Shown here one piece after another: positions 4,715 to 51,706 of a stretch of 64,000 nt of DNA. Origin of the DNA: Xanthobacter autotrophicus Py2 (GTDB lineage: Bacteria > Pseudomonadota > Alphaproteobacteria > Rhizobiales > Xanthobacteraceae); assembly GCA_000017645.1 (NCBI GenBank), contig CP000781.1, positions 2,777,501 through 2,841,500 of the forward strand, given 5' to 3'. The translations under genes and the position numbers were made by a program. Positions within the stretch are counted from its first letter, which is position 1, and every line of letters starts with the position of its first letter. The notes under the pieces were generated by a model. It was not told where the DNA came from. It was given only the letters and a program-made list of their open reading frames with translations, and did not search any database.

Positions 4715-4729
4715 CGGCCTCGGTCGGGC

Positions 4730-5404: not shown

Positions 5405-5413
5405 GGCCGTCCC

Positions 5414-26090: not shown

Positions 26091-26098
26091 GCCGCCCC

Positions 26099-27930: not shown

Positions 27931-27975
27931 GCGGCCTCCGATGCCTTCGTTCGGGTGCCGCGCGGGCTCGAAACG

Positions 27976-36821: not shown

Positions 36822-38033
36822 TCACTGCGGCCGGCGGCGCACCGCGAAGGCGGTCAGCACCGCGAGGCCGAGGGGGATCGCCGCGCCCACGAACACCAGG
36901 CGCGGCAGGTGGTGGTCGAGCATGAGGCCGAACATCAGCGGGCCCAAGAGCGCGCCGATGTCGTAGCCCGAATAGACCACGCCGAACACCTTGCCCGTCG
37001 CCCCCGCCGGCGCGGCGCCGCGCACCAGCACGTCGCGGGACGGCGTGGTCATGCCCATGGCGAAGCCCACCAGCGCCACCAGGCCCACGGTCACCTCCGG
37101 CGGCACCACCAGCAGGGCCGCGAGCAGCGCCAGCGCGCAGGCGCAGGCGAGCCCGCCCATGGCGATGAGGTGATGGTTGGCGGTGCGGTCCGCCACCGCC
37201 CCGCCCAGGGCGACGCCTGCCGCATTGCCGCACTGGTAGAGCGCGACCGCCAGCGTCGCCAGCGCCACCGTGGCGCCGAAGCCCTCCTTCAGGGCGACGA
37301 TGGAGAAGCTCTGGATGCCCGACAGCGAGATGGAGGTGAGGAGGAAATACAGGAAGGCCGTGAGCACCACCGGCATGGCCAGCACCTGGAAGAAGGTGGG
37401 GGCGGGGCCGTGCGCGGCCTTGGCGCTGTGCGCGGCACCCTGCTCCGGATCGGTCTTCAGGGCCTTGCGGCAGACCAGCAGCACGAGGCCGAGCACCGCC
37501 ACGCCGAGCCCCATGGCGCCGAGCGCGGTGCGCCAGCCATAGGCCGTGGCGATGGCGGCGGAGACGAGGGGGGAGAGCGCAAAGCCGATGCTGCCGGCGA
37601 TCACATGGGCGGCGAAGGCGCGCCCGAGCCGGGCCGGCGCCACCTTGTGGCTGAGGATGGAGAGATCCGCCGGGTGGTAGACCGAGTTGCCGAGGCCGGC
37701 GAGGGCGGCGAGCGGCAGCAGCACCAGGTAATGGGGCGCAAGGCCCATGGCCGCCGTGGCGGTGCCCTGCAGCAGCACGCCGGCGAGGAGCAGACGATGG
37801 GCGCCGAAGCGATCCACCAGGATGCCGGCAGTCACCTGTCCAACCCCGGAGAAGAGATAAAACACCGCGAGCACCGCGCCCAGGGCGACGAAGGAGACGC
37901 CGAGGTCCGCCCGCATCATCAGGAACAGGGGGGCGAGGGCGAGCTGGAGCAGGTGGCTGCAGAAATGGGCGACGCCCACGGCGCCGATGGTGGAGACTTC
38001 CCCGGCCGGCCATTCGGCCGTTCGCGCATTCAT
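36822..38033 (-). CDS. MFS permease
   Basis: A 403-residue, 12-segment major facilitator. The loop 2-3 motif is partly kept (GILVDRFGAHRLLLAG), and there is a long loop of about 25 residues between segments 6 and 7 (KTDPEQGAAHSAKAAHGP). No substrate can be inferred. ATG 38033 is used. In-frame GTG codons at about 38039 and 38048 lie closer to the GGGGAGGA site, so the true start may be slightly upstream. Confidence 0.82.
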   Translation of the reverse strand: MNARTAEWPAGEVSTIGAVGVAHFCSHLLQLALAPLFLMMRADLGVSFVALGAVLAVFYLFSGVGQVTAGILVDRFGAHRLLLAGVLLQGTATAAMGLAPHYLVLLPLAALAGLGNSVYHPADLSILSHKVAPARLGRAFAAHVIAGSIGFALSPLVSAAIATAYGWRTALGAMGLGVAVLGLVLLVCRKALKTDPEQGAAHSAKAAHGPAPTFFQVLAMPVVLTAFLYFLLTSISLSGIQSFSIVALKEGFGATVALATLAVALYQCGNAAGVALGGAVADRTANHHLIAMGGLACACALALLAALLVVPPEVTVGLVALVGFAMGMTTPSRDVLVRGAAPAGATGKVFGVVYSGYDIGALLGPLMFGLMLDHHLPRLVFVGAAIPLGLAVLTAFAVRRRPQ

Positions 38034-38281
38034 GGTCACGATCGACACTCCTCCCCGGGCCGGCATGATGCCGTCCCTTCCGGCGATTGCCGCCGGTTAT
38101 TGCGCCTCCCCTCGTCTGGTCCGCGGCGGGGTTGATCCCTGCCCTTGTGCTTCCGTGCCCGCTGGCGTGGGCCGAGCATGGGTGTCTTACCCTGTTGCCG
38201 CCGACGCCGTCACCCTCGAAGCGGGGCGCGGGCCTTCACGTTTGCGCACGGTCCGTTGCGGCCTTCGTGCTCATCTGGCGC

Positions 38282-40333
38282 TTACCTGGTACGGCGCGGT
38301 CCGTGGCCACCGAAGTACCGCAGCGTCAGGCAGGTGATGTCGTCGGCCTGCGGCGCGCCGCGTTCGAACACATGGACCGAGGCCAGCACCCGCTCCGACA
38401 GTTCGGGCACCGACCAGTCCGCGGCGCCGCTGCGGAGCAGGTCTTCCAGCCGTTCCTCGCCATAGGGCTTCTCGTCCACGTCGAACGCCTCGTTGACGCC
38501 GTCGGTGTAGAGGAAGAGCGTGTCGCCCGGCTGGAGATGCAGCTCGTGCTCCACGTAGACGAAGCCCTCCAGCACCGCCACCGCCATGCCGCCGGTGGAG
38601 GGCACGGTGGAGACCTCACCCGCGCGGGTGATGCGATAGGGCAGGTTGTGGCCGGCATTCACATAGGTGACGCGCCCGGATGACAGGTCGATCACGCCGT
38701 AGAGCACGGTGACGAACAGCATCTGCTCGTTCTCCACCGCCAGCAGGTCGTTGAGGCGGCGGATAGAGCTGGCCGGCGAGCGCTCGAACAGGGCGGTGGA
38801 GCGCAGCAGTGTGCGGGCGATGGCCATGAACAGGGCCGCCGGCACGCCCTTGCCGGAGACATCCGCCACCACGAAGCCCAAGTTGGTGTCGTCGATCATG
38901 AAGTAGTCGTAGAAGTCGCCGCCCACCTCGCGGGCCGGCGTCATCTGGCCGTGGATGGCGACGCGGGCGTCCGGCGGGAATTCCTTGGGCAGGATGGCGA
39001 GCTGCACCTGCCGGGCGATCTCCAGCTCCTGCTGCAGGCCGGCGAGCTTGGTCTTGGTGATGAGGGCTTCGCGCAGTTCCACCACCATGGAGGACAGCCG
39101 GGTGTGCTGCTCCACGATGCGCCGCGACAGGTCGTGCAGCACGCGGGCGACGCGCCGCAGCTCGTCGTCCTGCTCGCCCTCGGAACCCTTGGCGAGCAGC
39201 GCGAGCACTTCCTCGCGGTCGGTGGGGTCGATGGCGTCGGCCAGCGCCTGCAACTCGGCGGAGATGACCGCCTCCTGCCGGCGGCGCACGCGCTCGCGCT
39301 GGCGCCGGGTCTCGGCAAGGGCCTGCACATTACCGCGCAAGGCGAGCACGGCGGAGGCGATGCGGCCGATCTCGTCGTTGCCCACGTGGCCGACGGTGAC
39401 GGAGGTGTCGCCCCGCGCCAGCGCCTGCAGCACGTCGATGGCCGATTCCAGCGGCCGGAAGCTGTACCAGAGGAACACGTTGAGCCCGATGACGCCGATC
39501 AGCACCAGGCCGATGGCGCCGGTCACTGCCGACTGGCGGATGAAGGCGGTCGCCTGGACGGTCTCGGTGGTGTCCTCGAAGCTCACCAGCGCACCCACGG
39601 TGCTGGCGCTGATGTCTGAAATGGGGATGCTGGTGACGTTGTAGTTGCGCCCGTCCAGCACCATGCGCTCGGAGGTGGGCCGGCGCGGCGTGATGGAGAG
39701 CTTGGCCCGTTCCCACAAGCGGAAGTCGGTACTAGCCACCACCCGGCCGCGCAGGGTGACGAGGGTGGTCGTTGCGGTGAGGCCGCGGGCGAAGCGCTCC
39801 ATGCCGAGGGCGGCGTCGCGCCCGAGGATGAGCACGGCTGTGCCCTTGCCGGGAAGCTCCACGGTGCGGGTGGTCAGCACGACCACCTGGTTGGCGCCCA
39901 CCTGCCGCAGGCCGGAGAGCACCTCGCCCTTGAGCGCCCGGTCGAGGCTGCCGGCGTCGAGGATGTAGCGGTTGGCGGTGCCGCCGTCGCTGAACACCAC
40001 CTCGCGGTCGGCGGTCATCACCTCGAAATAGGTGTCGTCGTCGTTGATGTTGACGCCGAGCTCGCGGATGGCGGCGGCAACGCCCGGCCGGTCGGAGAAG
40101 CCGAGCGCGATGCGGAAGGCGGCGGAGCTGTCCACCCGCTCGAGGATACGGGCGAGGTTCGAGGTCTGGAACGCGACGATCTCGCGCCAGAGCACGGTCT
40201 GGCCCTCGATGGCCAGCTCCGCCTCCTGGGTCTCGGCCACGCGGTCGCGCAGCAGGGTGGCGCCCCAGATGCCCAGCATGAGGACGGCGAAGCCGATGGC
40301 GACGATCAGGGTGATGCGGGTACGCAGCAGCAT
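38282..40333 (-). CDS. Membrane-bound SpoIIE/RsbU-type PP2C phosphatase with HAMP
   Basis: A 683-residue protein. It has a membrane segment at about 7-27, a periplasmic region of about 240 residues that contains the sensor-like block EVMTADREVVFSDGG, a second membrane segment at about 270-292, a HAMP domain, a coiled linker (about 345-440) and a PP2C-like phosphatase domain (about 445-675). Phosphatase metal motifs are present: GGDFYDYF, VADVSGKGVPAAL, LYTDGVNEAFD and DDITCL. Such enzymes dephosphorylate STAS anti-anti-sigma factors. Two STAS proteins and a kinase are encoded in the divergent operon. It is translationally coupled (TGATG) to the sensor gene upstream. Confidence 0.9.
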   Translation of the reverse strand: MLLRTRITLIVAIGFAVLMLGIWGATLLRDRVAETQEAELAIEGQTVLWREIVAFQTSNLARILERVDSSAAFRIALGFSDRPGVAAAIRELGVNINDDDTYFEVMTADREVVFSDGGTANRYILDAGSLDRALKGEVLSGLRQVGANQVVVLTTRTVELPGKGTAVLILGRDAALGMERFARGLTATTTLVTLRGRVVASTDFRLWERAKLSITPRRPTSERMVLDGRNYNVTSIPISDISASTVGALVSFEDTTETVQATAFIRQSAVTGAIGLVLIGVIGLNVFLWYSFRPLESAIDVLQALARGDTSVTVGHVGNDEIGRIASAVLALRGNVQALAETRRQRERVRRRQEAVISAELQALADAIDPTDREEVLALLAKGSEGEQDDELRRVARVLHDLSRRIVEQHTRLSSMVVELREALITKTKLAGLQQELEIARQVQLAILPKEFPPDARVAIHGQMTPAREVGGDFYDYFMIDDTNLGFVVADVSGKGVPAALFMAIARTLLRSTALFERSPASSIRRLNDLLAVENEQMLFVTVLYGVIDLSSGRVTYVNAGHNLPYRITRAGEVSTVPSTGGMAVAVLEGFVYVEHELHLQPGDTLFLYTDGVNEAFDVDEKPYGEERLEDLLRSGAADWSVPELSERVLASVHVFERGAPQADDITCLTLRYFGGHGPRRTR

Positions 40334-41166
40334 CAGACCCCTCGTTCCGTCTCAGCCGCGCCGGGCGGGGCCATCACCTCGCGCCGCACTCGTTCTACGT
40401 CCGGCCGCAGCCCGCCGTCGAAATCCACCGCCAGCAATTCCTCCGCATAGGCCTCGAACACGGCGCGGCGATCGGCCACCCGCCGGTTGCCCCGTTCCAG
40501 CGCCCGCAAGGCGCGGCCGACCGCGCCGTGCGGTCCGGACCGGCGGCTGTATCGCAACGGGTCGTCAGAGGTGCCGTAATGCCCGTCCACCGCCGCCAGC
40601 AGGCCCTCGGCCAGTCGATGACGGTTGCGTTCCAGGGCGCCGCCCACCAGGAGGCCGGCGGCAAGGGCGGCGAGCGCGGCGCAGACCGCCACCACCACGG
40701 CGGCCTTGACGCCGATGTCGGCGAACGAGGTGGCGAGGGCCGCAGGATTGGTGGTGACCTCCACCGAGGCCACGGTATTGCCGTCCACCGTCACCGGCGC
40801 GGACACCGAATCAGCGCCCGGATGCTCGCCGATGGCGCTGCGGATCTCGCGGCCGTCGGCGCCGCGCAGGACGATCTGGGTCAGGCCGGGGGTGCGCGTC
40901 AGGGTTTCGGAGAGGTGGGTCTCAACTCCCGGCAGCAGCTTCAGCGGGATGCCGAAGCGCGCCGCCTTCTCGAACTGCTGCGCCAGGGTGCGCGCCACCG
41001 AGGTGCCGATGACGAGCGCGTCGCGCCGCGCGCTCTCCTCCACCCGCGCGCGGTAGCCGTTGAGGAGCACCGCCGCGGCGAGGGAGCCGAGGATGAAGGT
41101 GACGAAAAGGGCGAACAGGCCGGTCAGCAGGCGGGCGCGTCCCCCCTCCGGAAGCTCATGCGGCAT
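40333..41166 (-). CDS. Membrane sensor protein without output domain (sensor B)
   Basis: A 277-residue protein with two membrane segments (about 12-36 and 152-178), a periplasmic domain of about 115 residues between them, and a 100-residue cytoplasmic tail without a catalytic motif. The periplasmic part has FGIPLKLLPGVETHLSE, then IVLRGADGREIRS, then APVTVDGNTVASVEVTTNP. These blocks align with sensors A, C and D of this locus. It lies between sensor A and the phosphatase gene with overlaps on both sides. It probably relays a ligand signal to the phosphatase by direct contact (inference). Confidence 0.7.
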   Translation of the reverse strand: MPHELPEGGRARLLTGLFALFVTFILGSLAAAVLLNGYRARVEESARRDALVIGTSVARTLAQQFEKAARFGIPLKLLPGVETHLSETLTRTPGLTQIVLRGADGREIRSAIGEHPGADSVSAPVTVDGNTVASVEVTTNPAALATSFADIGVKAAVVVAVCAALAALAAGLLVGGALERNRHRLAEGLLAAVDGHYGTSDDPLRYSRRSGPHGAVGRALRALERGNRRVADRRAVFEAYAEELLAVDFDGGLRPDVERVRREVMAPPGAAETERGV

Positions 41167-41902
41167 CGTCGAGCGCTCCCAGCTGGCCGAGGCCGCGATC
41201 CACGCGATCCTCGGCGTCGCGCCAGCTCTTCACCGTTTCATCGGCGAGTTGCGTGAGGGGGCCGTCGTCGTTGGAGGTCGCTCCTTCGCCACTGAGGATG
41301 CGGGCGACCCGGTCGAACGGCCGGGTCAGGACATAGGCGAAGGTCACCGCGGCAAGGCTGGCGGCCAGCGCCGCGGCGAGGGTGAGGATCGCGGTGCGGG
41401 AGACGAGGTCGAGGCCGAGCCGGCTGGCGCGGGAACTGCGCGCCTCGTCCGAGACCGTCACCGAAATGCCGCCGGCGACGCCGAGGTCGTTCTCGAATCG
41501 GGTGCCGAACACCGTGTCGCCGCGCTCCGCCTCGGTCCACACCTCTTCGGAGGCCAGGTTCCGGACCCAGCCCGGGGTCACTTCCTCGCCGATCACGCTG
41601 CGATCGGTGGAATAGATGGCGCGGCCGGCGGCATTGAAGATGTCGATGGCGAGGATGGAGGGGTCGCTCGCCTTCTCGCGCTCGATGCGCGGCTGCAGCA
41701 GCGAGATCTGGTCGAGCAGCAGGCCGATGGAGAGGTTGGCCTCGGTGGAGGCGCGCAGGGTGCCGAGCAGGTTGGCGACGCGGGCGCGCTCGATCTCCTC
41801 GCCCACCTTGTCGCTCGCCGTGAAGGCAATAGCGGCCACCGCGATCACCGCGGCGCTCACGGAAAGGACGGCGACCAGGATGAGCCGGCTTACGAAAGTC
41901 AT
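41156..41902 (-). CDS. Membrane sensor protein without output domain (sensor A)
   Basis: A 248-residue protein: membrane segment at about 6-27, a periplasmic domain to about residue 165, a second segment (TAILTLAAALAASLAAVTFAY), and a 60-residue tail without enzymatic motif. The CACHE-like block IDIFNAAGRAIYSTDRSVIG lies at 86-105 and is followed by NDLGVAGGISVTVSDEA. It is first in the leftward operon and overlaps the sensor B gene by 11 bases. It faces the rightward operon across a 279-base shared promoter region. Confidence 0.7.
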   Translation of the reverse strand: MTFVSRLILVAVLSVSAAVIAVAAIAFTASDKVGEEIERARVANLLGTLRASTEANLSIGLLLDQISLLQPRIEREKASDPSILAIDIFNAAGRAIYSTDRSVIGEEVTPGWVRNLASEEVWTEAERGDTVFGTRFENDLGVAGGISVTVSDEARSSRASRLGLDLVSRTAILTLAAALAASLAAVTFAYVLTRPFDRVARILSGEGATSNDDGPLTQLADETVKSWRDAEDRVDRGLGQLGALDDAA

Positions 41903-42024
41903 GCAGTGAGCTTCGGTGGAAGGGCCGGCCGGACGTTAACCGCCAGCTTCAAGCCAAACCAGACAAAAACTCATCGATGACCAAAAAAACCTTCAATCTC
42001 AGATCCCTTTTCGTGGCATGAAGA

Positions 42025-42040
42025 ACCCTGCCGGCAGGGT
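42025..42040. promoter_or_regulatory. 16-bp perfect palindrome in the shared promoter region
   Basis: ACCCTGCC/GGCAGGGT lies between the divergent sensor A and sensor C genes. The position suits an operator controlling both directions. It could also form a stem in the rightward leader. No regulator is encoded beside it. Confidence 0.5.
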
Positions 42041-42078
42041 AGGAGGTTGCCTCTGTCGCAAATTGCCGTCAGCGGCGA

Positions 42079-42148
42079 GACGATTCGGGCAAGACGGTTC
42101 CGGCAAAACGATTCCGGTAAGACGCTTCGGGTAAGACGCTTCGGCCTG
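42079..42148. repeat. Five 14-bp imperfect tandem repeats upstream of sensor C
   Basis: Units are GACGATTCGGGCAA, GACGGTTCCGGCAA, AACGATTCCGGTAA, GACGCTTCGGGTAA and GACGCTTCGGCCTG, head to tail. The array ends 33 bases before the sensor C start codon. The 14-base period is not a codon multiple, so it is a non-coding array, either protein-binding or slippage-prone. Confidence 0.8.
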
Positions 42149-42181
42149 TTCTTACGGACCAGAGACACGCGGATCCAACAC

Positions 42182-42931
42182 ATGGCGCGGACCACTCTCG
42201 GGCTGATCGCTGTGTTCGCACTGATCGCGGCGGCATGCGTCGCGTTCGGCGCCTACTTCTCCTATGTCACCCTGCTCAATGCCCACCGCTCGGTCATCGA
42301 GGCGCGATTCGGCATTGCCGCCGAGCGGGCCGCCGACGTGGCCGAGCAGGCCGCCTCGCTGGGCATCGCCCTGCCGGCGCAGAGCACCCTGACCAGCCTG
42401 CTCGACCGCGAAGCGCGGGTGGAGCCCGCCATCCGCTCCATGGACCTGGCCGACGAGCATGGCATCGTGCTGTTCTCCAGCGATCCGGCGCGCGTCGGCA
42501 TTGCCGAAGCCCAGGATGGCGGGCGCGGCCTCACCCGGCCGGTGCGCAACGACCTCAACGAGGTCATCGGGCACGTGGTGGTGCGGTACGACCCCCAGAT
42601 CCTCGCCGCCGGCGCGGCGGCGCTGGGCGAGGACCTCAAGGTGATCGCCCTGCCGGCGCTCATCGGCGCGGGCGTCGCCACCGTCGTCATCGGGCTGCTG
42701 CTGGCCGCCCTGCTGCGCCGGGCCGTGCGGCGCGCCTCCGATCCGCGCGGCTGGCCGCCGGCGGCGCGGGCCGCCCTGGCGGCGGCCGATAGCATCCATC
42801 GCGAGGCGGCGGGAGGGTCCCGCAGCGGCAACCTGTCCTTGGGTAAATCGACTTCAGGCAAATCCCCTTCGGGCAAATCCCCGTCCGGAAAACCCCCTTC
42901 CGGGCCTACCGAATCGCGGAGGCGGGCATGA
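42182..42931 (+). CDS. Membrane sensor protein without output domain (sensor C)
   Basis: A 249-residue protein: membrane segment at about 7-28, periplasmic domain, second segment at about 155-178, then a 70-residue cytoplasmic tail. Periplasmic blocks are LGIALPAQSTLTSLLDREA, MDLADEHGIVLFSSDPARVG, and RPVRNDLNEVIGHVVVRYDP, matching sensors B and D. The tail ends in a low-complexity run encoded by 15-base repeats. ATG 42182 begins MARTTLGLIAVFAL; the open frame upstream covers the tandem repeats and is not coding-like. It overlaps the next gene by ATGA. Confidence 0.7.
   Translation: MARTTLGLIAVFALIAAACVAFGAYFSYVTLLNAHRSVIEARFGIAAERAADVAEQAASLGIALPAQSTLTSLLDREARVEPAIRSMDLADEHGIVLFSSDPARVGIAEAQDGGRGLTRPVRNDLNEVIGHVVVRYDPQILAAGAAALGEDLKVIALPALIGAGVATVVIGLLLAALLRRAVRRASDPRGWPPAARAALAAADSIHREAAGGSRSGNLSLGKSTSGKSPSGKSPSGKPPSGPTESRRRA
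42837..42911. repeat. Five 15-bp tandem repeats in the end of the sensor C gene
   Basis: Units such as CTTCGGGCAAATCCC and CTTCAGGCAAATCCC repeat in frame and encode GKS(T/P)SGKS-like residues. The core CTTCGGGCAA is shared with the 14-base array upstream of the same gene, so both arrays may have the same origin. Confidence 0.8.
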
Positions 42932-44913
42932 TCGGGCTGCGTGGCGGCATCACCATCGCCATCGTGCTCATCCTGTGTTCGGCCCTCGCCTTCATCGGCT
43001 GGGGGGCCGAGCGGGCGGCCCACCGCACCATCGCCCCCGAGATCCTGGCCAAGGCCAATACGGTGGCGCGGTCCGCCGCCGACCTGCTGGGCCGCGCCGG
43101 CACGGTCGGGGTGCCGTTCGACCGGCTGGTGGGCGTGAGCGACTATTTCGACAGCCTGCGCGCCGCAAATCCCGATTTCGCCCAGATTAGCCTCGTGTCC
43201 GCTGCAGGCGCGGAGCTGGCCAGCGCCGGCGACGCGACGGGCTTCGAGGGCGCGCCGCAGGCCCGCGTTCCGGTGGCGGACCCGTCCGGGCGGCGGCTCG
43301 GCGACGTGGTGATCCTGGTGGATCCGACGGCGGTGACGGCGCAGGTGGGCGCGGTGCTGGTGGACGTGGCCTTTATCGGTGTCGTTTCCCTGCTGGTGGC
43401 GCTGGAGCTGGTGGCCCTCGTGGTCGGCTCGCGCGGCATCGGCGCGCTGATGGCGGTGGAGCGGCGCCTGAAGGCGCTGGGGCGGGGCATGCTGGCGCGG
43501 CACGAGGGCGATCCGGGCGCCGCCGGCAGCCTTGTCGGGCCCATCGACCGCCAGGTGGATGCCCTCGCCGAACGCCACGCGGCGATCCGGGCGGCGGCGG
43601 AAGCGCGGGGCGACGCCGCGGCGCTCGCGCGCCTCGCCGACCTTGAAACCCGGACCGGCCTCGGCCGGGTCCAGGCGGCGGAGAGCGAGGCCGCCATCGC
43701 GGTGCGACCCGCCCTGTTCCTGTTCATGCTGGCGGAGGAGCTGACGCGGCCGTTCCTGCCGCGATTCGCCCAGTCCATCGCCGGCGGCAGTGCCCTCTCG
43801 CCGGATTTCGCGGCGAGCCTGCCCATCGTCGCCTTCATGGCGGTGGTGGCCCTGTGCCAGGTGCCGTTCGCCGGCATCTCGGAACGGCTCGGCCGGCGGC
43901 CGGGGTTCGTCTTCGGCGCCCTGCTGGCGGCCACCGGCTATGCGCTTTCGGCGGTCAGCCCGTCCTATGGCCTGTTCGTGGGCGCGCGCGTCGCCACGGC
44001 GGTGGGCTATGCGCTGGTCTTCGTCTCGTCCCAGGGCCATGTGGTGGATTTTTCCGCCGGGGCGGCGCGCAGCGCGGCGCTCGCGGTGTTCGTGCGGGCC
44101 ATCATGGTGGCGAGCCTGTGCGGACCGCCCATCGGCGGCGTCATCGCCGACCGGCTGGGGGCGCCGGCCGCTTTCATGGCCTCAGCAGGCCTTGCCCTCG
44201 TGGCCCTCGTGGTGGCGTTGCTGACCCTGCCGAAGACGGTCCGGCGCGCGGGCGCGGCGGCGGGCGTGGGCCTTGCCGATCTCAAGGACGCGGCGCGGGC
44301 GCCGGGGCTCATGGCACTGCTGTTCGGCTGCGCATTCCCGGCCAAGTTCCTGTTCGCGGCCCTGTGCTTCCTGCTGGTGCCGCTGGAGTTGCAGCGCCTC
44401 GGCTACACCTCCGCCGCCATCGGCCGCTTCCAGATGATCTATCCCATCATCATGGTGCTGGCGGTGCCGTTCTTCGCCGCCATGGCCGACCGGTTCGATG
44501 CCCGCGGCGGCTTCGTGGTGGCCGGCGCGCTGGTGTCGGGGCTCGGCGCCATGGCCATGGTGCTCAATCCGTCCATTGCCTTCATCGTGGTGGCGCTGGT
44601 GGCGCTCGGCTACGGGCAGGCCCTGTCCATCGCCTCCCAGTCGGCGCTGGTGGCCGACACGGCCTCCGCGCTCGGCGGCGGGCGGGCGGCCGGTGTTCTT
44701 GGCCTGTTCCGGCTGGTGGAGCGCAGCGGCAACGCCGCGGGACCCGCAAGTGCCGGTTTTCTCATGGCGACCATCGGATTTGCGGCCGCGACCACGCTTA
44801 TCGGCGCTGTGGTAGTAGCCGGAGCAGCCCTGTTTGCGCTATCCGGGCTTAGAACCGCGCATCACCCCCGCCGCGCCTCGTCCGCGGCCGCATCGGAAGG
44901 AAGCTCCGCCTGA
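42928..44913 (+). CDS. Sensor domain fused to an MFS permease (sensor D-MFS)
   Basis: A 661-residue fusion. Residues 1-170 repeat the sensor architecture: membrane segment, periplasmic domain with VGVPFDRLVGVSDYFDS, ISLVSAAGAELASAGDATG and RRLGDVVILVDP, then a second segment. A cytoplasmic linker of about 90 residues follows. From about 262 onward it is a complete 12-segment MFS carrier with the motif GISERLGRRPGFVFGALLA. It is coupled to sensor C (ATGA) and to the binding-protein gene (TGATG). The fusion suggests that transport is gated by, or reports to, the periplasmic sensor. It could also be an efflux or uptake carrier for the signal itself. Confidence 0.8.
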   Translation: MIGLRGGITIAIVLILCSALAFIGWGAERAAHRTIAPEILAKANTVARSAADLLGRAGTVGVPFDRLVGVSDYFDSLRAANPDFAQISLVSAAGAELASAGDATGFEGAPQARVPVADPSGRRLGDVVILVDPTAVTAQVGAVLVDVAFIGVVSLLVALELVALVVGSRGIGALMAVERRLKALGRGMLARHEGDPGAAGSLVGPIDRQVDALAERHAAIRAAAEARGDAAALARLADLETRTGLGRVQAAESEAAIAVRPALFLFMLAEELTRPFLPRFAQSIAGGSALSPDFAASLPIVAFMAVVALCQVPFAGISERLGRRPGFVFGALLAATGYALSAVSPSYGLFVGARVATAVGYALVFVSSQGHVVDFSAGAARSAALAVFVRAIMVASLCGPPIGGVIADRLGAPAAFMASAGLALVALVVALLTLPKTVRRAGAAAGVGLADLKDAARAPGLMALLFGCAFPAKFLFAALCFLLVPLELQRLGYTSAAIGRFQMIYPIIMVLAVPFFAAMADRFDARGGFVVAGALVSGLGAMAMVLNPSIAFIVVALVALGYGQALSIASQSALVADTASALGGGRAAGVLGLFRLVERSGNAAGPASAGFLMATIGFAAATTLIGAVVVAGAALFALSGLRTAHHPRRASSAAASEGSSA

Positions 44914-45971
44914 TGGACCGCCGCTCCCTCCTTGCCCTGGGCCTCGGTGCCGGCGCCGCAGGGCTCGCCGGCCGGTTGCCCGGCGCCCACGGCCAGCCGG
45001 CCCCCACCGGGCCGGTGGCCTCGGGATCTGCCGCCGCGCCGCGGGCCGAGCCGTTCCGCGTCCTGATGCTCACCTTCCGGGGCGACACCGACGTGGAGCG
45101 CGGGTTCCGCGACTATTTCGCCGCCAACGAGATCAAGGTGGAGTTCCTCACCCGCGACGTGGAGCGCGACGCGGGCCGGGTGAAGCCGATCCTCGCGGAG
45201 GTGCTGCCCAGCTTCAAGCCGGACCTCATCTATACCTACGGCACCCCCAACACCCTCGCCGTCGCCGGCCCCTACGATGCGCCGCCGGACGCGCCGTTCG
45301 TGCGCGACATCCCGGTGGTGTTCGCGCTGGTGGCGGCGCCGGTGCAGGTGAAGATCGCGCCCTCGCTGGCCTCGTCCGGGCGCAACGTCACCGGGGCGGT
45401 GCACGTGGTGCCAACCGACGTGCAAATGCGCGCCATGCAGAGCTACAAGGCGTTCCACAAGGTGGGCGTCATCTACTCGCCGAACGAGCGCAACTCGGTG
45501 GCCATCATCGAGGAGATGCAGGCCTTCTCCGCCGGCATCAACGCGAGCGTCATCGCCCAGCCCCTCACCATGGTGGGCAGCCGGCCCACCGGCGACGGGG
45601 TGGAGGACTTCGTGCGCAACCTGAAGGCACAGGGCGCCGACTGGCTCTATCTGCCCGCGGATACCTTCCTCGCCACCATCTTCGACCGGGTGGGGCCGGC
45701 GGCGCTGGCGGCGGGCCTGCCCACCTTCGGCGCCACTGAATACTTCCTGCGCGAGGGTCTCGGCCTCGTGGGCCTGGTGAGCCGGTACTATTCGGTGGGC
45801 CAGCTGGCCGCGTCGAAGGCGGTGGAGGTGCTGGTGCAGCGCGTGCCCCCTCGGGATATTCCCATAGAGACGCTGAGGCGCTTCGCGCTCATCATCAACA
45901 TGAACATTGCCAAGCAGCTTGGGGTGTATCCGCCCATCGCCATGCTCAACTATGCGGAAGTGATCACCTGA
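44913..45971 (+). CDS. Orphan ABC-type substrate-binding protein (ABC_sub_bind family)
   Basis: A 352-residue periplasmic binding protein. The signal segment MDRRSLLALGLGAGAAGLAG is followed by a Pro/Ala linker. The family core includes FRVLMLTFRGDTDVERGFRD, NVTGAVHVVPTDVQMR and GLPTFGATEYFLREGLGLVG. ATPase and permease genes for an importer are absent. It is embedded between a sensor-MFS fusion and a GNAT gene with single-base overlaps. It may therefore act as a soluble receptor that presents a ligand to the membrane sensors, rather than as an import component (inference). Confidence 0.82.
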   Translation: MDRRSLLALGLGAGAAGLAGRLPGAHGQPAPTGPVASGSAAAPRAEPFRVLMLTFRGDTDVERGFRDYFAANEIKVEFLTRDVERDAGRVKPILAEVLPSFKPDLIYTYGTPNTLAVAGPYDAPPDAPFVRDIPVVFALVAAPVQVKIAPSLASSGRNVTGAVHVVPTDVQMRAMQSYKAFHKVGVIYSPNERNSVAIIEEMQAFSAGINASVIAQPLTMVGSRPTGDGVEDFVRNLKAQGADWLYLPADTFLATIFDRVGPAALAAGLPTFGATEYFLREGLGLVGLVSRYYSVGQLAASKAVEVLVQRVPPRDIPIETLRRFALIINMNIAKQLGVYPPIAMLNYAEVIT

Positions 45972-46651
45972 TGAACGCCCTGCGCGAGTTCGCACAGACC
46001 GAACCGCTCACCCCTCGCGAGCTCGGCCCGGACGATCTTGATGCGGTCGACGCGCTGCACCACCTCGCCATCGGCCCGCTGGTGCGGCCGGAGGTGGTGA
46101 AGCCGGAGAACCGCTCGTATTTCGAGGGCATCCTGGGCGGACGCGGCTGGACGGTCGGGCTCTATGACGGCCCCATGCTGGTGGCCTACGGCATTCTCCA
46201 GCACGACCATACCCCCAAGGATGGGCCGCACCGCCTGCTCGGCCTGCCGCCGGAGACGAAGGTGGGCCGGCTGGCCGGCGCGTCCGTGCACCCGGCCTAT
46301 CGCGGGCGGGGGCTCCAGCGGGTGCTGATCGCGGCACGGGTGAAGGCTGCGCCGCCCGACATGGTGCTGTTTTCCACCGCCGCGCCGGTGAACACGCCGA
46401 GCTGGTCGAGCCTGCTCGCCGAGGGCTTCCCCATCCACGACATCCAGCTCTTCTTCGGCGGCTATGCCCGCTATGTCCTGGTGCGCGACGGCAGCACCTA
46501 TGATCCGGCGGAAGCGGTGCTGGTGGATCCCCTCGACACTGCCCGGCAGAAGGCCCTGTTCGCCGAAGGCTGGCACGGCTACGAGCGCAGCCGGCTGGAA
46601 TGCGGCGCGGCCGGCGTCCTGTTCGCGCGGCCGATACGGGCCGAGGGCTGA
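45971..46651 (+). CDS. GNAT-family acetyltransferase
   Basis: A 226-residue protein. The acetyl-CoA loop is VHPAYRGRGLQRVLI, preceded by AGASVHPAYRG-type strand four, and NTPSWSSLLAEGF is like motif B. The N-terminal 50 residues (LTPRELGPDDLDAVDALHH) complete the fold. The overlap TGATG with the binding-protein gene shows it belongs to the same operon. Possible targets include one of the encoded signalling proteins or a small ligand; neither is supported by sequence. Confidence 0.8.
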   Translation: MNALREFAQTEPLTPRELGPDDLDAVDALHHLAIGPLVRPEVVKPENRSYFEGILGGRGWTVGLYDGPMLVAYGILQHDHTPKDGPHRLLGLPPETKVGRLAGASVHPAYRGRGLQRVLIAARVKAAPPDMVLFSTAAPVNTPSWSSLLAEGFPIHDIQLFFGGYARYVLVRDGSTYDPAEAVLVDPLDTARQKALFAEGWHGYERSRLECGAAGVLFARPIRAEG

Positions 46652-46811
46652 AGCGCGCCGGAAAAGTCCGGGGGTGAAGCCCCGGGCGTGGACGGCCGCT
46701 GTTTCCGCTTCCGGCCGTTTTCACTAGACTGTCGGCGTGGCGGGACTGTCGCAGTGGCGGACCACCCTGTGCCAGGTTCCGCCCGCCCTGGATCGTGAGA
46801 GACACGCGCGC

Positions 46812-47162
46812 ATGAAGATCGAGAGTCAGCCGCTGCGACCCGGCGTCGTCCTCGTCAGCCTCGACGGGCGTCTCGACATTTCCGGCGCCGCCCAGGTGGA
46901 GCCGCAGTTCAAGGCCGCCTGCGACGCGGCCAACGTGGTGCTGGTGGACCTCTCCCGCACGCCGTTCATGGCCTCCATCGGCATCCGGCTGCTGCTCACC
47001 GGCGCCAAGGGGCTGCGGCGCAAGGGCGGCAGCCTGCACCTGTGCGCCTGCGACCCGCAGGTGGAGAAGGTGCTGGTCGCAACCGGCGTGCACCAGCTGG
47101 TGGCGATCCACGCCACGCGGGATGAGGCGCTCGCCGCGGCGGGCTCCTCCAGCGGCACGTGA
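46812..47162 (+). CDS. STAS-domain anti-anti-sigma factor homologue 1
   Basis: A 116-residue STAS protein resembling SpoIIAA/RsbV. The phosphorylation loop reads TPFMASIGIRLLL. The Ser aligns with Ser58 of SpoIIAA, but the preceding Asp is Ala and the following Ser is Ile, so switching kinetics may differ. ATG 46812 begins MKIESQPLRPG. It lies 10 bases before the RsbW-type kinase gene, the usual arrangement of a partner-switch pair. Confidence 0.88.
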   Translation: MKIESQPLRPGVVLVSLDGRLDISGAAQVEPQFKAACDAANVVLVDLSRTPFMASIGIRLLLTGAKGLRRKGGSLHLCACDPQVEKVLVATGVHQLVAIHATRDEALAAAGSSSGT

Positions 47163-47172
47163 CGGGGCGCCC

Positions 47173-47616
47173 ATGCCCGCGCTGCTCGCCGAGAGCCTGA
47201 TCTCCTCCCTCGATGTGGAGGCCCGCATCGACGACATCACCAAGGCGACCGGCTGGCTCGGCGCCCTCGCCGAGGATGAGGGCTGGTCGCAGGCGACCCA
47301 GTTCGCGCTGGAGCTGTCGCTGGAAGAGGCGCTGACCAATGTGGTGTCCTACGGCTTCCAGGACAGCACTGTGGTCCCGCATATCCGCATCGAATGCTAC
47401 CGCCTGCCGGAGGGACGGGTAGCGGTGCGCCTGATCGACAACGGCGTCGCGTTCGATCCCACCACCATCGCCGAGCCGGAGGTGCCCGCCTCCATCGAGG
47501 ACGCCAAGATCGGCGGCCATGGCGTGCAGCTCATGCGCAACTTCCTCGAAACCCTCGCCTATGCCCGCGAGGGCGGGGAAAACCACCTGACCCTCATCGC
47601 CGGCAAGCCGGACTGA
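47173..47616 (+). CDS. RsbW/SpoIIAB-type serine kinase (anti-sigma factor homologue)
   Basis: A 147-residue GHKL ATPase. The N-box is ELSLEEALTNVVSYGF, the G1 box DNGVAFDP and the G2 box GGHGVQLMRN. Such proteins phosphorylate STAS partners and bind a target, often a sigma factor, when the STAS protein is phosphorylated. No sigma factor is encoded here, so the target is open. ATG 47173 follows STAS1 directly, and GGGGCGCCC upstream is a weak ribosome site. Confidence 0.88.
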   Translation: MPALLAESLISSLDVEARIDDITKATGWLGALAEDEGWSQATQFALELSLEEALTNVVSYGFQDSTVVPHIRIECYRLPEGRVAVRLIDNGVAFDPTTIAEPEVPASIEDAKIGGHGVQLMRNFLETLAYAREGGENHLTLIAGKPD

Positions 47617-47725
47617 GTCCGCGCCCCGGAAGGGCACAGGACGGGCGATGGCTCCCGGCCGGGCGCCGCGCGGCGCCTTTGCGCGCGAGACTGTTCCAGC
47701 CCCACCCTTTCCCGCCCCGTCTTTT

Positions 47726-47770
47726 CCAGCCGCAACTCAACCAGCCGCGACTCAACCAGCCGCGACTTGG
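47726..47770. repeat. Three 15-bp tandem repeats upstream of the Na/Pi-type transporter gene
   Basis: CCAGCCGCAACTCAA, CCAGCCGCGACTCAA and CCAGCCGCGACTTGG occur head to tail in the 294-base gap before the transporter gene. It is a third short array in the same locus. The rest of the gap has no recognised gene. Confidence 0.7.
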
Positions 47771-47910
47771 CCGCCGCACCCCGGCCTGCGGCGACGGGGC
47801 GCCGGGCCGGCATCGCGGGTGCCGTCATGTGGTCGTCGTCATAATGATACAGACCTGCCCCAGAATGTGCGGTCATCCCGCATCTGGACGGAGGGCGCTG
47901 CAAAACAGCC

Positions 47911-49560
47911 ATGGCGATCATTGCGCAAATTCTCGCCGGGCTGGGCCTGCTCTTCGTCGGACTGAAAATCATGTCGACGCACCTGCAGCAGGCCACGGGC
48001 CGGCGGGTGCGGCACCTGCTGCGCACCGCCACCCGCTCGCCGTTCGCGGGGCTGCTGTGCGGAACGCTCGCCGGGGCGGCGACCCAGTCGTCAAACGCGG
48101 TGGCGGTCATCAGCGGCAATCTGGTGCGCGGCGGGGTGCTCGCCACCCGTGACGCCATCCCCATCGTGGCCGGCGGCAACGTGGGCACCGCCGCCCTGGT
48201 GTTCGTGGCCGCCATCGATTTCCGCCTGCTGGTGCTCTACCTGGTGGCGATGGTGGGCTTCGGCTTCCAGTTCAAGCTCGACCGCCGCCCGGCTTTCAAG
48301 GAATGGATGGGCGTCGCCCTCGGCCTCGCCCTGGTGCTGCTGGGGCTCGACTATATCAAGCAGGGGCCGCGCGCCCTCGACGTGAGCGCGCTGGCGGCAT
48401 TCCTCGACACTGGCATCTCGCCGTGGGTCGGCTTCCTGCTGGGGCTCATCGCCGCCGCCGTCAGCCAGTCCTCGTCCACGCCCACCATCCTGGTGGTGGC
48501 GCTGATGCAGTCCCAGGTGCTCGGCCTTGATGATTCTATCGTCATCGTGATGGGCGCCAATCTCGGCTCGGGCATCTCCGCCGTGCTCACCGCCGGGGAG
48601 CTGGAGGGCACCGGGCGGCAGCTGTGCTACGTGCACGTGCTGGTGAAGGCGGTGGGCTGCCTCCTCGTCGGCGCGGGTTTTCTGGCCGCCGGGTGGCTCG
48701 GGGCCGAGCCGGTGGCCCTGCTGTCGCAGATGGGCGGGGGAAAGGCCTCGGCCTCCTTGTCCCTGCTGTTCCTGGCGCTGCAGGTGGCCGGCGCCGTGCC
48801 GGTTTCCTTCGCCCGTGGGGTGACCGAGGCCATCGCAGCGCGGCTGAGCCCGCCCACCATGGAGGACGGCGCCTCCAAACCCCGCTTCATCCACGAGCGA
48901 GCGCTGGGCGATTTCGCCACCGCCCTCGATCTGGCCGAACAGGAGATCATGCGGCTGGTGAAGCTCTTGCCCACCCTGCTGCCGGACCTCGACCAGCAGG
49001 ACCAAAGCGGGCCGGCGGAGCGGCTGGCCCTGTGGCGGGGCGCCAACGCCATCGGCGTCGACATCGAACAGTTCCTGTCCGATCTCATCGCCCGTGGCGT
49101 GCCGAGGGGCAGCCTTGAGACTGCCCTGCATCTGCAGGCGCTGGTGGAAACCGTGCGCACCCTGCAGGACACGCTGCACGCCTTCACCGAGGTGGTGGAG
49201 GGCTTTGCCGACCTGCCGCCCCTCGGCTTCAACCTGTCCGAATCCCTGCGCACCATCATCCTGTCACTGGCCGACGCCACCGACGGCGATGCGGAGGACC
49301 TCGACCTCATCATCACGCTGGCGGGCGACCGCAGCGACCTCTTGAGCCGCATCCGCCGCCAGCTCGCGGCCTCGGCGCTGGGCACGGGGGAGGACGCGCG
49401 CCAGCTCCTGCTTGCCACCAGCCTGTTCGAGCGCGGCGTCTGGCTGGTGCGGCGCGGCGCAGTGGCGTTGCGTGCTCCCGAGAATGAGGCTAATCCCGTG
49501 GTCAACGCGGCCTCCGGCGAGGCGCGCAAGCGAGAAGAGGCCGATGCACATCGAACGTGA
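47911..49560 (+). CDS. Na/Pi-cotransporter family protein with PhoU-like tail
   Basis: A 549-residue protein. Two inverted PF02690-type repeats form the membrane part: GAATQSSNAVAVISGNLV near residue 55 and AAVSQSSSTPTILVVALMQ near 185, each with the QSS motif. A cytoplasmic helical PhoU-like domain follows (about 325-530). Bacterial NptA-like proteins carry phosphate with sodium; those with PhoU tails may have signalling roles. Its last 17 bases overlap the second STAS gene, tying it to the partner-switch module. Confidence 0.85.
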   Translation: MAIIAQILAGLGLLFVGLKIMSTHLQQATGRRVRHLLRTATRSPFAGLLCGTLAGAATQSSNAVAVISGNLVRGGVLATRDAIPIVAGGNVGTAALVFVAAIDFRLLVLYLVAMVGFGFQFKLDRRPAFKEWMGVALGLALVLLGLDYIKQGPRALDVSALAAFLDTGISPWVGFLLGLIAAAVSQSSSTPTILVVALMQSQVLGLDDSIVIVMGANLGSGISAVLTAGELEGTGRQLCYVHVLVKAVGCLLVGAGFLAAGWLGAEPVALLSQMGGGKASASLSLLFLALQVAGAVPVSFARGVTEAIAARLSPPTMEDGASKPRFIHERALGDFATALDLAEQEIMRLVKLLPTLLPDLDQQDQSGPAERLALWRGANAIGVDIEQFLSDLIARGVPRGSLETALHLQALVETVRTLQDTLHAFTEVVEGFADLPPLGFNLSESLRTIILSLADATDGDAEDLDLIITLAGDRSDLLSRIRRQLAASALGTGEDARQLLLATSLFERGVWLVRRGAVALRAPENEANPVVNAASGEARKREEADAHRT

Positions 49561-49846
49561 GCAGCTCGGGTCCGAGGTGGTGCTGAAGGTGGCGGGACGG
49601 CTCGATACGCCCAACGCGAAGCCGTTCGAGGCGAGCCTCATGGAAGTGGTGACCACCACCGATGGCGGGCTCCTCGTGAACCTCGCCGGCGTGGACTATG
49701 TCTCCTCCTCGGGCCTTCGGGCCCTGCTGGTGGCCGGCAAGGCCATGCGCACCGCCAAGCGCAAGCTCACCTTGTCCTCGCTCCAGCCGCAGATCCGGGA
49801 AGTGTTCGACATTTCCGGCTTCTCGACCCTGTTCGAGATCACCTGA
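49544..49846 (+). CDS. STAS-domain anti-anti-sigma factor homologue 2
   Basis: A 100-residue STAS protein starting MHIEREQLGSEVVLKVAG. The loop GVDYVSSSGLRALLVAG keeps the phosphorylatable Ser and is closer to the consensus than STAS1. It overlaps the transporter gene by 17 bases and is last in the operon. It may compete with STAS1 for the single RsbW-type kinase, or link the kinase to the transporter. Confidence 0.88.
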   Translation: MHIEREQLGSEVVLKVAGRLDTPNAKPFEASLMEVVTTTDGGLLVNLAGVDYVSSSGLRALLVAGKAMRTAKRKLTLSSLQPQIREVFDISGFSTLFEIT

Positions 49847-49902: not shown

Positions 49903-50994
49903 TCAGCCCACCGGTGCCCACAGCACGTCCTCGATGCGACGCGCGCCGCTGGCCAGAACGGCGAGGCGGTCGAAGCCCAGGGCGCAGCCGCTCGCGGGCG
50001 GCATCGCCGCCAGAGCGGCCAGGAAATCGGCATCGATGGGATAGCGCTCGCCATAGAGCCGTTCTTTCTCGTCCATCTCCTCCTCGAAGCGCCGGCGCTG
50101 CTCGTCGGCGTCGGTCAGTTCGCCGAACGCATTGGCCAGCTCCAGCCCGCAGGCATAAAGCTCGAAGCGCTCGGCGAAGCGCGGATCCTCCGGCTTGGGC
50201 CGGGCCAGCGCCGCCTCGCTCACCGGATAGTCGCACAGCACCGTGGGCCGCCCCATGCCGAGCCGGGTCTCGATCTTTTCCACCAGCACCCGCGAGAAGA
50301 TGTCCGCCCAGGTGTCGTCCGGCGCGGTGCGGATGCCGTGCGCCGCCGCCAGCTCGGCAAACGGCCTCGGATCGGGCCGCTCGCCGGGGGCGGGCAGCAC
50401 CGTGGCCAGAGCCATGCCGGCGTGGCGCGCGAACGCCTCTTCCAGCGTCAGCCGCTCCGGCGCGGCGAAGGGGTCGCAGGTGTGTCCCCGCCAGGCGAAG
50501 GTCGACACGCCGCCGGCCTCGGCGGCACAGGCGAGAAGGCCGGCACAGTCGTCCATGAGCCGGTTATAGGGCGCACCGGCCCGATACCATTCCAGCAGGG
50601 TGAACTCGGGATGGTGGGCCATGCCGCGCTCCCGGTTGCGGAACACACGGGCGAACTCGAAGATCTGCTCTTCCCCCGCCGCCAGCAGCTTCTTGGAGGC
50701 GAATTCCGGCGACGTGCGCAGATAGAGCGTGCGCCGGGCACCGTCCGGGCCGATGAGGTCGGTGGCGAAGGCGTGCAGGTGCGCCTCGTTGCCGGGCGAG
50801 ACCTGGAGCGCCGGCGTCTCCACCTCAATGAAGCCTTCGCCGGCAAGGCGGGCGCGGATCGCCGCCATCATGCGCCCGCGCGCCAGCAGGAACGGCCGCC
50901 GGTCGGCGTGGACGGAGCGGCTCCACCATGGGCTGGGATTGGGGCTGGGATTGGCGCTGGGATCGGGGCTTGTGCCGGGCGTCGATACCGCCAT
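49903..50994 (-). CDS. epmA: EF-P lysine lysyltransferase EpmA (GenX/PoxA)
   Basis: A 363-residue truncated class II lysyl-tRNA synthetase without the anticodon domain. Class II motifs are EVETPALQVSPGNEAHLHAF, RTSPEFASKKLLAAG, VFRNRERGMAHHPEFTLLEW and the C-terminal GCALGFDRLAVLASG. It attaches (beta-)lysine to the conserved Lys of EF-P. The divergent neighbour is efp, a common arrangement. The first 24 residues are a Pro/Asn/Ser-rich run coded by short repeats (PDPSANPSPNPSP), so the true start may be further in. Confidence 0.92.
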   Translation of the reverse strand: MAVSTPGTSPDPSANPSPNPSPWWSRSVHADRRPFLLARGRMMAAIRARLAGEGFIEVETPALQVSPGNEAHLHAFATDLIGPDGARRTLYLRTSPEFASKKLLAAGEEQIFEFARVFRNRERGMAHHPEFTLLEWYRAGAPYNRLMDDCAGLLACAAEAGGVSTFAWRGHTCDPFAAPERLTLEEAFARHAGMALATVLPAPGERPDPRPFAELAAAHGIRTAPDDTWADIFSRVLVEKIETRLGMGRPTVLCDYPVSEAALARPKPEDPRFAERFELYACGLELANAFGELTDADEQRRRFEEEMDEKERLYGERYPIDADFLAALAAMPPASGCALGFDRLAVLASGARRIEDVLWAPVG

Positions 50995-51136
50995 GGGGCG
51001 CGAAATCCTTATTGCGGCAGGGGGCCGGAGGCAGAAAGGCGGGCACGAGACTGGTTTTGTGCGCCAAGATCGCTATGTTGCGCGCCGATAGATCAGGAGC
51101 GGCACGCCGCCGCACAAAGTTCAAGGAAGACGCGAC

Positions 51137-51706
51137 GTGGTCAAGGTCATCGCCAGCTCTCTGCGCAAAGGCAATGTGGTCGATATCGACGACAAGCTCT
51201 ATGTGGTGCTCACCGCTGAAAATATTCATCCCGGCAAGGGCACGCCGGTCACCCAGCTCGACATGCGCCGCATCTCCGACGGGGTGAAGATCTCCGAGCG
51301 CTACCGCACCACCGAGCAGGTGGAGCGCGCCTTCGTGGAAGACCGCCCGCACACTTTCCTCTACGAGGATTCGGACGGCTACACCTTCATGAACCCTGAG
51401 AATTTCGATCAGGTGATCGTGACCAAGGACGTGATGGGCGACTCGGCGGTGTATCTGCAGGAAGGCATGGAATGCATGCTCTCCACCCATAACGGCGTTC
51501 CCATCGCCATCGAGCTGCCGGCGCGCGTGACGCTGGAGATCGTGGACACCGAGCCCACCGTGAAGGGCCAGACCGCCTCGTCCTCCTACAAGCCGGCCAA
51601 GCTTTCCAATGGCGTGCGCACCATGGTGCCGCCGCACATCTCCGCGGGCACCCGCGTGGTGATCATGACCGCCGACAACTCCTATGTGGAGCGGGCCAAG
51701 GACTGA
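51137..51706 (+). CDS. efp: Elongation factor P
   Basis: A 189-residue EF-P with three beta domains, which rescues ribosomes stalled at polyproline. The modification loop is HPGKGTP with Lys34 as the acceptor, matching the presence of epmA. The C-terminal domain ends [19 protein letters not shown]. The start is GTG 51137, with AAGGAAGACGCGAC upstream. A hairpin follows the gene. Confidence 0.95.

Follow-up and report, generated by a model that had tools for sequence, protein, structure and literature searches.

How a membrane-bound phosphatase learns what lies outside the cell is the question raised by a gene block of Xanthobacter autotrophicus Py2. The block occupies positions 38282–49846 of the window, i.e., of the 64,000 nt stretch analyzed here (contig CP000781.1, positions 2,777,501–2,841,500, in a genome of 5.6 Mb in two contigs). 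It holds eleven open reading frames (ORFs) in two diverging operons that encode a SpoIIE-type receptor phosphatase, four membrane sensors (A–D), a transporter of the major facilitator superfamily (MFS) fused to sensor D, a periplasmic binding protein, a GNAT-like acetyltransferase, two STAS proteins, an RsbW-type kinase and a Na/Pi-type carrier. Partner switches such as RsbU/RsbV/RsbW and SpoIIE/SpoIIAA/SpoIIAB of Bacillus consist of a PPM phosphatase, a STAS antagonist and a HATPase_c_2 kinase. To our knowledge, they have mostly been described from the sigma factor outward, and we know of few accounts of signal sensing by membrane phosphatases of this type.

The locus is probably a membrane sensory array with a partner switch as its output. 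Comparison of related loci shows co-inheritance of its genes, paralogous sensor pairs, MFS-like remnants in the position of sensor A, and exchange of the phosphatase for a cyclase. What appears to be new is the mirror of paired sensors, a receptor subunit probably derived from a transporter, and a swappable output. The cluster looks like an undescribed modular route from an outside signal to a response. Its comparative anatomy offers a signal path to test, i.e., a binding protein, two sensor pairs and an exporter. Natural experiments are found among the relatives: the output swap, gene fusions, a strain with no binding protein in the locus, and a series of sensor A position proteins that apparently records the passage from transporter to receptor subunit.

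Organization and conservation of the locus

The two operons form a mirror, SpoIIE-A-B facing C-D-MFS, and D-MFS is followed by the binding protein, GNAT, STAS1, RsbW, the carrier and STAS2. The ORFs, their order and their strands were verified and are all as described in an initial annotation of this DNA. Its family names are borne out by Pfam (ten locus proteins scanned, STAS2 left out) and NCBIfam (both STAS proteins covered). Support is weak for GNAT (45971–46651, plus strand), where the Acetyltransf_1 match has an E-value of 0.0023 and 18.6 bits, below the cut-off of 20.7.

Related loci were collected with the sensor-MFS protein as bait, so that this protein is present in every locus by construction. 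It was found in 19 of 149 genomes sampled within the family and in 20 of 385 sampled within the class (17 families). A collection of named genomes gave 37 loci, three of which are weak MFS-only matches; the nearest named locus is that of Xanthobacter oligotrophicus, with a 98% identical sensor-MFS. The 54 loci compared are the window locus, 22 from the same family, 11 betaproteobacterial and 20 distant ones, some of them on truncated contigs. A B/C-type sensor is present in all 54, the binding protein in 53 and a receptor in the SpoIIE slot in 47 (45 phosphatases and 2 cyclases). GNAT is found in 41, RsbW in 39, STAS in 34, the Na/Pi carrier in 24 and a racemase in 16.

All sufficiently long loci of the family (n = 22 others) except that of X. 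tagetidis (L051) share the order SpoIIE-A-B|C-D-binding protein-GNAT-(slot)-RsbW-carrier-STAS2. This conservation is more than chance, and by gene order the eleven genes form a real unit. Of the 12 Xanthobacter loci, a number that includes the window and L051, 10 have STAS1 in the slot after GNAT (L055 and L056 do not), and STAS1 is seen in Xanthobacter loci only. In three loci of the Azorhizobium group and one of Aquabacter the slot is taken by an alanine racemase, whose N and C domains are both matched in Pfam; in the remaining family loci it holds no family member. The X. tagetidis locus (positions 10001–20334 of L051) retains the sensors, MFS, SpoIIE, STAS1 and RsbW, with STAS1 placed after MFS. 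In the 11 betaproteobacterial loci the genes lie on one strand in the order C-D-MFS (one protein), binding protein, GNAT, racemase (10/11), B, A, SpoIIE. The co-occurrence of all eleven families, which the initial annotation proposed as a check, is thus seen for the sensors, sensor-MFS and binding protein together with the phosphatase; it does not extend to STAS1 or to the carrier.

Paired sensors and the sensor-transporter

Sensors A (40333–41166, minus strand), B (41156–41902, minus strand) and C (42182–42931, plus strand) have no output domain above the Pfam cut-off. B and C give sub-threshold Cache-type matches and A gives none. AlphaFold2 models of A (pLDDT 87.7) and B (pLDDT 81.8) display a Cache/PDC-like domain between long helices bearing predicted transmembrane (TM) segments, and in a PDB comparison both resemble extracytoplasmic Cache/PDC sensors, e.g., WalK, DcuS and CitA. 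Judged by these models, A and B are Cache-type sensors (sCache-like) with a PDC/Cache fold between two TM helices; C is considered sCache-like by its kinship with B. A crude hydropathy scan predicts two TM segments each in the SpoIIE protein, A, B and C, and 11 in D-MFS.

Profile comparison by hhalign pairs A with D (97%, 1e-10) and B with C (96%, 2.7e-9). Similarity is weaker for A-C (86%) and C-D (79%), and nothing was found for A-B or B-D. In hidden Markov model (HMM) scores the A/D-position proteins of every row match best with the A/D model and the B/C-position proteins with the B/C model. Only the distant rows test this sorting, since the models were built from the family and betaproteobacterial rows, and in the distant loci the assignment of sensor positions relied in part on HMM matches. 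In a tree of 44 A/D sensor domains, one branch (support 73/62) divides A from D, with one change in 70% of bootstrap trees against 14 expected with shuffled labels. This single-branch separation is consistent with one old A/D duplication. By profile similarity the sensors, listed initially as four separate ones, are all present and are two paralogous pairs, B-C and A-D, arranged as mirror images. One pair precedes the phosphatase and the other precedes and is fused to MFS, and it is this pairing that makes the locus a mirror of SpoIIE-A-B and C-D-MFS.

The partition of the sensors varies among relatives. C is fused to D-MFS in 11 of 11 betaproteobacterial loci, and sensor A is fused to SpoIIE in two separate groups, Castellaniella (L066, L068, L069) and genomes G513/G436. 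Among the distant loci, L122, L123, L125, L131 and L132 yielded a single sensor pair; in L123, L125 and L132, stretches of about 1 kb carry no label.

The fused protein of sensor D (42928–44913, plus strand) has an MFS_1 match of 1.2e-30 (107 bits, cut-off 33.4) and was placed in an alignment of ten. Its relatives in PDB and NCBIfam are of efflux type, all below equivalog cut-offs, and the protein is classed as an MFS transporter of putative efflux type. Proteins in the A position of some relatives carry more than a sensor. The 631 aa protein of L124 consists of a sensor followed by an MFS_1 match just above the cut-off (2e-8, 34.0 bits, cut-off 33.4). Hydropathy gives 11 TM segments in the A-position proteins of L124 and L127, 9 in L130 and L080, 8 in L121, 7 in L134 and L076, and 2 in sensor A of the window. 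Matches to the MFS-part profile are at 4e-4 to 2e-3 or better for L124, L127 and L121 and at 0.014 for L130, with none for the others. Pfam finds no family in the transporter-like part of L127, L121, L130, L134, L076 and L080, so that an MFS origin of these parts rests on weak profile matches and TM counts. Given this decayed MFS-like domain in the A position of relatives, A looks like a former sensor-transporter. It is probably a copied sensor-MFS protein that has shed its transporter part and turned into a receptor subunit, the change having presumably run in this direction.

Receptor phosphatase and exchange of the output

The receptor phosphatase (38282–40333, minus strand) is predicted to consist of a TM segment, a periplasmic (dCache-like) domain, a second TM segment, HAMP, a linker and a SpoIIE/PPM domain (Pfam SpoIIE 1.4e-50, HAMP 1.9e-7). 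The dCache matches fall on the homologous receptor half in L124 and L127; the window protein itself has none. On reading of the sequence the metal-binding motifs GGDFYD, DVSGKG, TDG and DDIT are present, and by these motifs the protein is a PPM/SpoIIE phosphatase with its metal-binding aspartates. Of the 45 loci that have a SpoIIE phosphatase, 38 also have RsbW, against 0 of the 8 that lack one (p 7e-6, uncorrected for kinship); L039, which is truncated before it reaches the SpoIIE side, was excluded from this test.

L124 and L127 belong to two genomes of the same genus (G312/G410). Their protein in the SpoIIE slot keeps the receptor half (model positions 1–408, 279 and 276 bits, dCache and HAMP matches, also aligned) and has a class III nucleotide cyclase at its end (PF00211, 4.3e-19 and 3.3e-19). 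RsbW and STAS were not found in these two stretches. The output can be exchanged, the phosphatase being replaced by a cyclase on the same receptor half, as seen in this one genus. Cyclase genes also adjoin the module in L076 and L131. The SpoIIE domains of Azospirillum B510 (L080, positions 24778–27933, 75 bits) and of genome G188 (L160, positions 667–3102, 22.3 bits, cut-off 25, 35 kb from sensor-MFS) lack the usual metal-binding motifs. These two, with type VI secretion genes nearby, are possible pseudophosphatases. A class-wide search finds the receptor half in 20 of 385 genomes, and it may be shared more widely, chemoreceptor-like proteins included. Five further matches to it (L154, L158, L159, L161 and L162) end, by reading, in apparent chemoreceptor signalling tails.

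These relationships bear on whether the sensory genes belong to the partner switch at all. MFS, the binding protein and GNAT might be a transport or metabolic unit that is merely housed on one island with a partner switch independent of it. A sensor-MFS-binding protein core is in fact present without SpoIIE in the stretches of L128, L129, L136 and L082, although a degenerate SpoIIE protein lies 35 kb away in L129. Such simple co-inheritance is very unlikely considering that A and D are paralogous, that A fuses to SpoIIE and that the receptor half stays when the output changes. The earlier proposal that the sensors and binding protein gate the phosphatase fits their conservation together across alpha- and betaproteobacteria, the A-SpoIIE fusions and the association of RsbW with the phosphatase.

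Partner switch and carrier

STAS1 (46812–47162, plus strand; STAS 2.5e-16, ant_ant_sig 60.2 bits) and STAS2 (49544–49846, plus strand; ant_ant_sig 64.8 bits) are of the anti-anti-sigma type, with an ant_ant_sig cut-off of 53.45 bits. Both have a Ser at the expected acceptor position (FMASIG in STAS1, YVSSSG in STAS2) and are predicted STAS antagonists. RsbW (47173–47616, plus strand; HATPase_c_2, 4.7e-19) keeps the N-, G1- and G2-box motifs, which mark it as a putative HATPase_c_2 kinase; NCBIfam RsbW models match below cut-off. The genome has three SpoIIE, eight STAS and 19 HATPase_c_2 matches. Of the latter, only the locus kinase is a short frame of RsbW type; the other 18 lie in frames of at least 413 aa, one of which was examined further and reads as a receiver-containing kinase. 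A lone STAS protein at 2.259 Mb of the same genome (L138, positions 6941–7327) has the same ASIG variant as STAS1, and is a possible extra substrate of the locus kinase.

A target was also sought among unlabelled ORFs near loci of the betaproteobacterial and Tistlia type. An all-against-all comparison in 13 loci gave no group of more than four ORFs among the 15 largest, many of them from three Castellaniella loci or antisense, and a conserved extra gene as target was rejected. Another candidate lies within the locus itself. The Na/Pi-type carrier (47911–49560, plus strand; Na_Pi_cotrans 3.4e-41, Na_Pi_symport above cut-off) shares 17 nt with the STAS2 gene, and it is present in 20 of 22 further family loci, the misses being a truncated contig (L040) and X. 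tagetidis L051. STAS2 or RsbW might bind this carrier, the array then tuning ion or phosphate flux. Outside the family the carrier is present in only 2 of 11 betaproteobacterial and 1 of 20 distant loci, and SpoIIE and RsbW persist where it is missing. We consider it improbable as the target, and as a part of the system in general it was not upheld (24/54 loci).

Binding protein and putative signal

The periplasmic binding protein (44913–45971, plus strand; ABC_sub_bind 8.8e-22, supported by alignment) is of the TrpX/ABC_sub_bind type and is the only PF04392 match in the genome. Its N terminus is twin-arginine-like (DRRSLL), a feature conserved in the alignment. It scores 83.9 bits against NCBIfam TrpX (cut-off 390) and is not a TrpX equivalog by that measure. 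No ABC permease or ATPase is present among the ten locus proteins scanned; permeases genome-wide were not searched. The PDB matches are 3lkv, 3lft and 6hni, relatives that hold Phe, Trp and Tyr according to PMC6816091. The racemase, where present, has the pyridoxal phosphate (PLP) lysine motif in 16 of 16 cases, and an ATP-grasp_4 gene is located beside GNAT in L080 and L124. The aromatic amino acids in the solved structures and the racemase and ATP-grasp genes of relatives are the grounds for an amino-acid-like signal. They suggest that the ligand is an amino-acid-like compound; GNAT and ATP-grasp families act on many substrates. A ligand prediction at the residue level was too uncertain to yield any claim.

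The same genes could have another meaning, i.e., that the signal is self-made. GNAT, with a racemase or ATP-grasp partner in relatives, would make a modified amino acid, MFS would export it, and the binding protein and sensors would read it back; since the compound is exported and then read, the switch would respond to cell density or confinement. The frequency of GNAT (41/54) and racemase (16/54), the intact PLP lysine motif, the ATP-grasp_4 genes and the predominance of exporters among MFS relatives of known structure or name fit such a cycle. Nonetheless a complete pathway is not evident, the GNAT match is sub-threshold, GNAT was not found in 12 of 20 distant loci, and the racemase is missing in the Xanthobacter loci and, among the Aquabacter loci compared, occurs in just one. 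A self-made signal is rather unlikely on this balance.

Association with type VI secretion

Among the family genomes, Hcp, a type VI secretion system (T6SS) protein, is found in 13 of the 19 that bear the locus and in 7 of the 130 that do not (p 9e-10, uncorrected), or by genus in 5 of 5 against 6 of 42. Twelve of the 13 genomes come from four genera, and in the window genus Hcp is found in 1 of 7 genomes. At the class level the association is not significant (4/20 against 40/365, p 0.27), and Hcp is absent from the window genome (G000). No more than 10 kb separate Hcp from sensor-MFS in genomes G188 and G422, a proximity that has a chance of about 2e-4 under random placement. L080 adjoins the T6SS genes VasE, IcmF, ImpA, VipB and Hcp, L160 is about 15 kb from an Hcp gene, and a third T6SS-linked locus, L125, has a ClpV-like ATPase, Hcp and a VgrG-like protein, with the phosphatase motifs present. 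T6SS as a general output was rejected, as the strong family link comes from few genera, the class link is not significant and G000 lacks Hcp.

T6SS genes would have a place if the array detected competitors. Non-standard amino acids of rivals would be sensed, GNAT, racemase and MFS would modify or expel them, and the output would arm the cell, e.g., by type VI secretion. The enrichment of Hcp in locus-bearing family genomes, its proximity in G188 and G422 and the several T6SS genes in Azospirillum B510 and G422 agree with this. Competitor sensing is nevertheless unlikely: besides the absence of Hcp from the window genome, the class-level result and the few genera involved, G188 and B510 have a degenerate SpoIIE domain, and RsbW and STAS were not found in the stretches examined there.

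Proposed mechanism

The reading that we prefer remains a sensory array acting on the partner switch. In the periplasm, the TrpX-like binding protein would bind a small amino-acid-like compound. Either this protein, with or without its load, or the compound directly would act on the sensor pairs B+A and C+D. B+A would sit with the dCache-HAMP-SpoIIE receptor and C+D with the efflux-type MFS, to which D is fused, and the same signal would set both phosphatase activity and export. By analogy with RsbU/V/W systems, an active SpoIIE domain would dephosphorylate STAS2, and in Xanthobacter also STAS1; RsbW would rephosphorylate the STAS proteins and hold its target while they are phosphorylated. In this scheme we infer the ligand, the direction of the response, the physical contacts and the target.

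A broader proposal is put forward tentatively. A sensor-transporter pair may have been duplicated, one copy losing its transporter domain and becoming a receptor subunit. Through both copies one amino-acid-like ligand, delivered by a binding protein that leaves the cytoplasm via Tat, would be coupled to an exporter as well as to an exchangeable output, which may be a phosphatase with a partner switch, a nucleotide cyclase or a dead phosphatase domain linked to T6SS. This could represent a new class of receptor complex.

Several results weigh against the sensory-array reading or limit it. No sigma-factor family or other target was found among the locus proteins scanned with Pfam and NCBIfam. 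In X. tagetidis L051 no binding protein, GNAT, carrier or STAS2 occurs in the 8.4 kb after MFS, so that the binding protein may be dispensable. Three of the 11 betaproteobacterial loci showed no RsbW, and seven no STAS, within about 10 kb. Support for the A/D split is moderate, and the output exchange comes from a single genus. The N terminus of the SpoIIE protein was considered as a fifth sensor homologue and rejected, as it has no profile similarity to A–D. The counts are not independent, because every locus was retrieved by way of sensor-MFS and many of the loci are relatives of each other. Motif patterns match in 34/54 (MFS motif A), 40/54 (MFS motif C), 31/41 (GNAT), 34/39 (kinase N-box) and 36/39 (kinase G1-box) cases; the patterns are narrow and these values are lower bounds. 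Among the pattern misses, L121, L075 and L076 are intact on reading, L070 is cut by the contig and L032 is split.

Comparison with known systems

No description of this gene set was found in the open-access library searched (titles and beginnings of abstracts; subscription papers were outside the scope), in agreement with the initial annotation. The locus shares with RsbU/V/W and SpoIIE/AA/AB the PPM phosphatase, the STAS antagonist with an acceptor Ser and the HATPase_c_2 kinase. It differs in having a transmembrane receptor with HAMP and no sigma factor found in the locus, and the four sensors, binding protein, GNAT and two carriers are additional. LuxP-LuxQ is a binding-protein-gated receptor. 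The locus resembles it in that a periplasmic binding protein may act on a membrane sensor, but its predicted output is Ser phosphorylation via a phosphatase, and it has a sensor-transporter and paired sensors that lack outputs.

SiaABCD of Pseudomonas aeruginosa (PMC7647112) likewise has a phosphatase of related build in a partner switch. The window phosphatase scores 65.8 bits against NCBIfam SiaA (cut-off 700) and is not a SiaA equivalog by that measure, the locus has no SiaD-like diguanylate cyclase, and its kinase and STAS are of the RsbW/STAS types. The abstract and outline of that source do not mention a sensor array or binding protein. BtrU/BtrV/BtrW of Bordetella (PMC8256260) is also a proteobacterial partner switch tied to a secretion system; this is type III and not type VI, and sensor pairs, a binding protein and MFS are unmentioned in the passage on it there. 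Binding proteins of the TrpX/CD0873 type (PMC6816091) belong to the same sequence family, and their relatives hold Tyr, Phe and Trp. Unlike the TrpX/CD0873 importer, the locus genes include no ABC permease or ATPase, and the TrpX score is far below cut-off.

Loci included in the comparison

Omitted from the 54 were L043–L045, L047–L050, L052–L054 and L057–L060, which by length and place are on the same contigs as L024–L040, and L041, L042, L065 and L074, which represent one genome over two contigs. Contigs of 3.5 and 5 kb (L117 and L137) and a contig end (L119) were also omitted; L117 and L137 both show a B-type sensor and sensor-MFS, and L137 also a partial binding protein. The weak MFS-only matches L077–L079 were left out, as were L083, found by SpoIIE and not by sensor-MFS, and L081 from A. 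lipoferum, with MFS alone and no partner genes found. Eight of 11 Azospirillum plasmid matches and 96 further proteins are outside the locus comparison. Retained despite truncation were L034, L039, L040, L070 and L126. In L062 the binding protein and racemase are each in two frames and were scored as present. The SpoIIE gene of L032 (positions 3900–5504), from a metagenome-assembled genome, is split into two frames, which may reflect faulty assembly or a pseudogene.

Intergenic region and flanking genes

Refined start positions are 42182 for sensor C, 46812 for STAS1, 49544 for STAS2 and probably 47173 for RsbW. The divergent intergenic region is 279 bp (41903–42181). DNA alignment shows that a block of about 110 bp (approximately 41908–42020), containing GGACGTTAACCGC and an A-rich stretch, is strongly conserved in seven Xanthobacter loci. 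It is possibly a shared promoter and operator. Between 38000 and 50000, two sigma-70-like promoters are found against 0.5 expected, neither inside this region, and four terminators against 4.1 expected. The C-terminal tail of sensor C (42842–42925) is a short repeat of the GKS(P/T)SGK type, and a related imperfect repeat of about 15 bp is readable just upstream of the sensor C start codon. By reading only, the neighbour to the left of the block (36822–38066) is another MFS-like transporter, and the neighbours to the right (49903–51706) are EpmA and EF-P.

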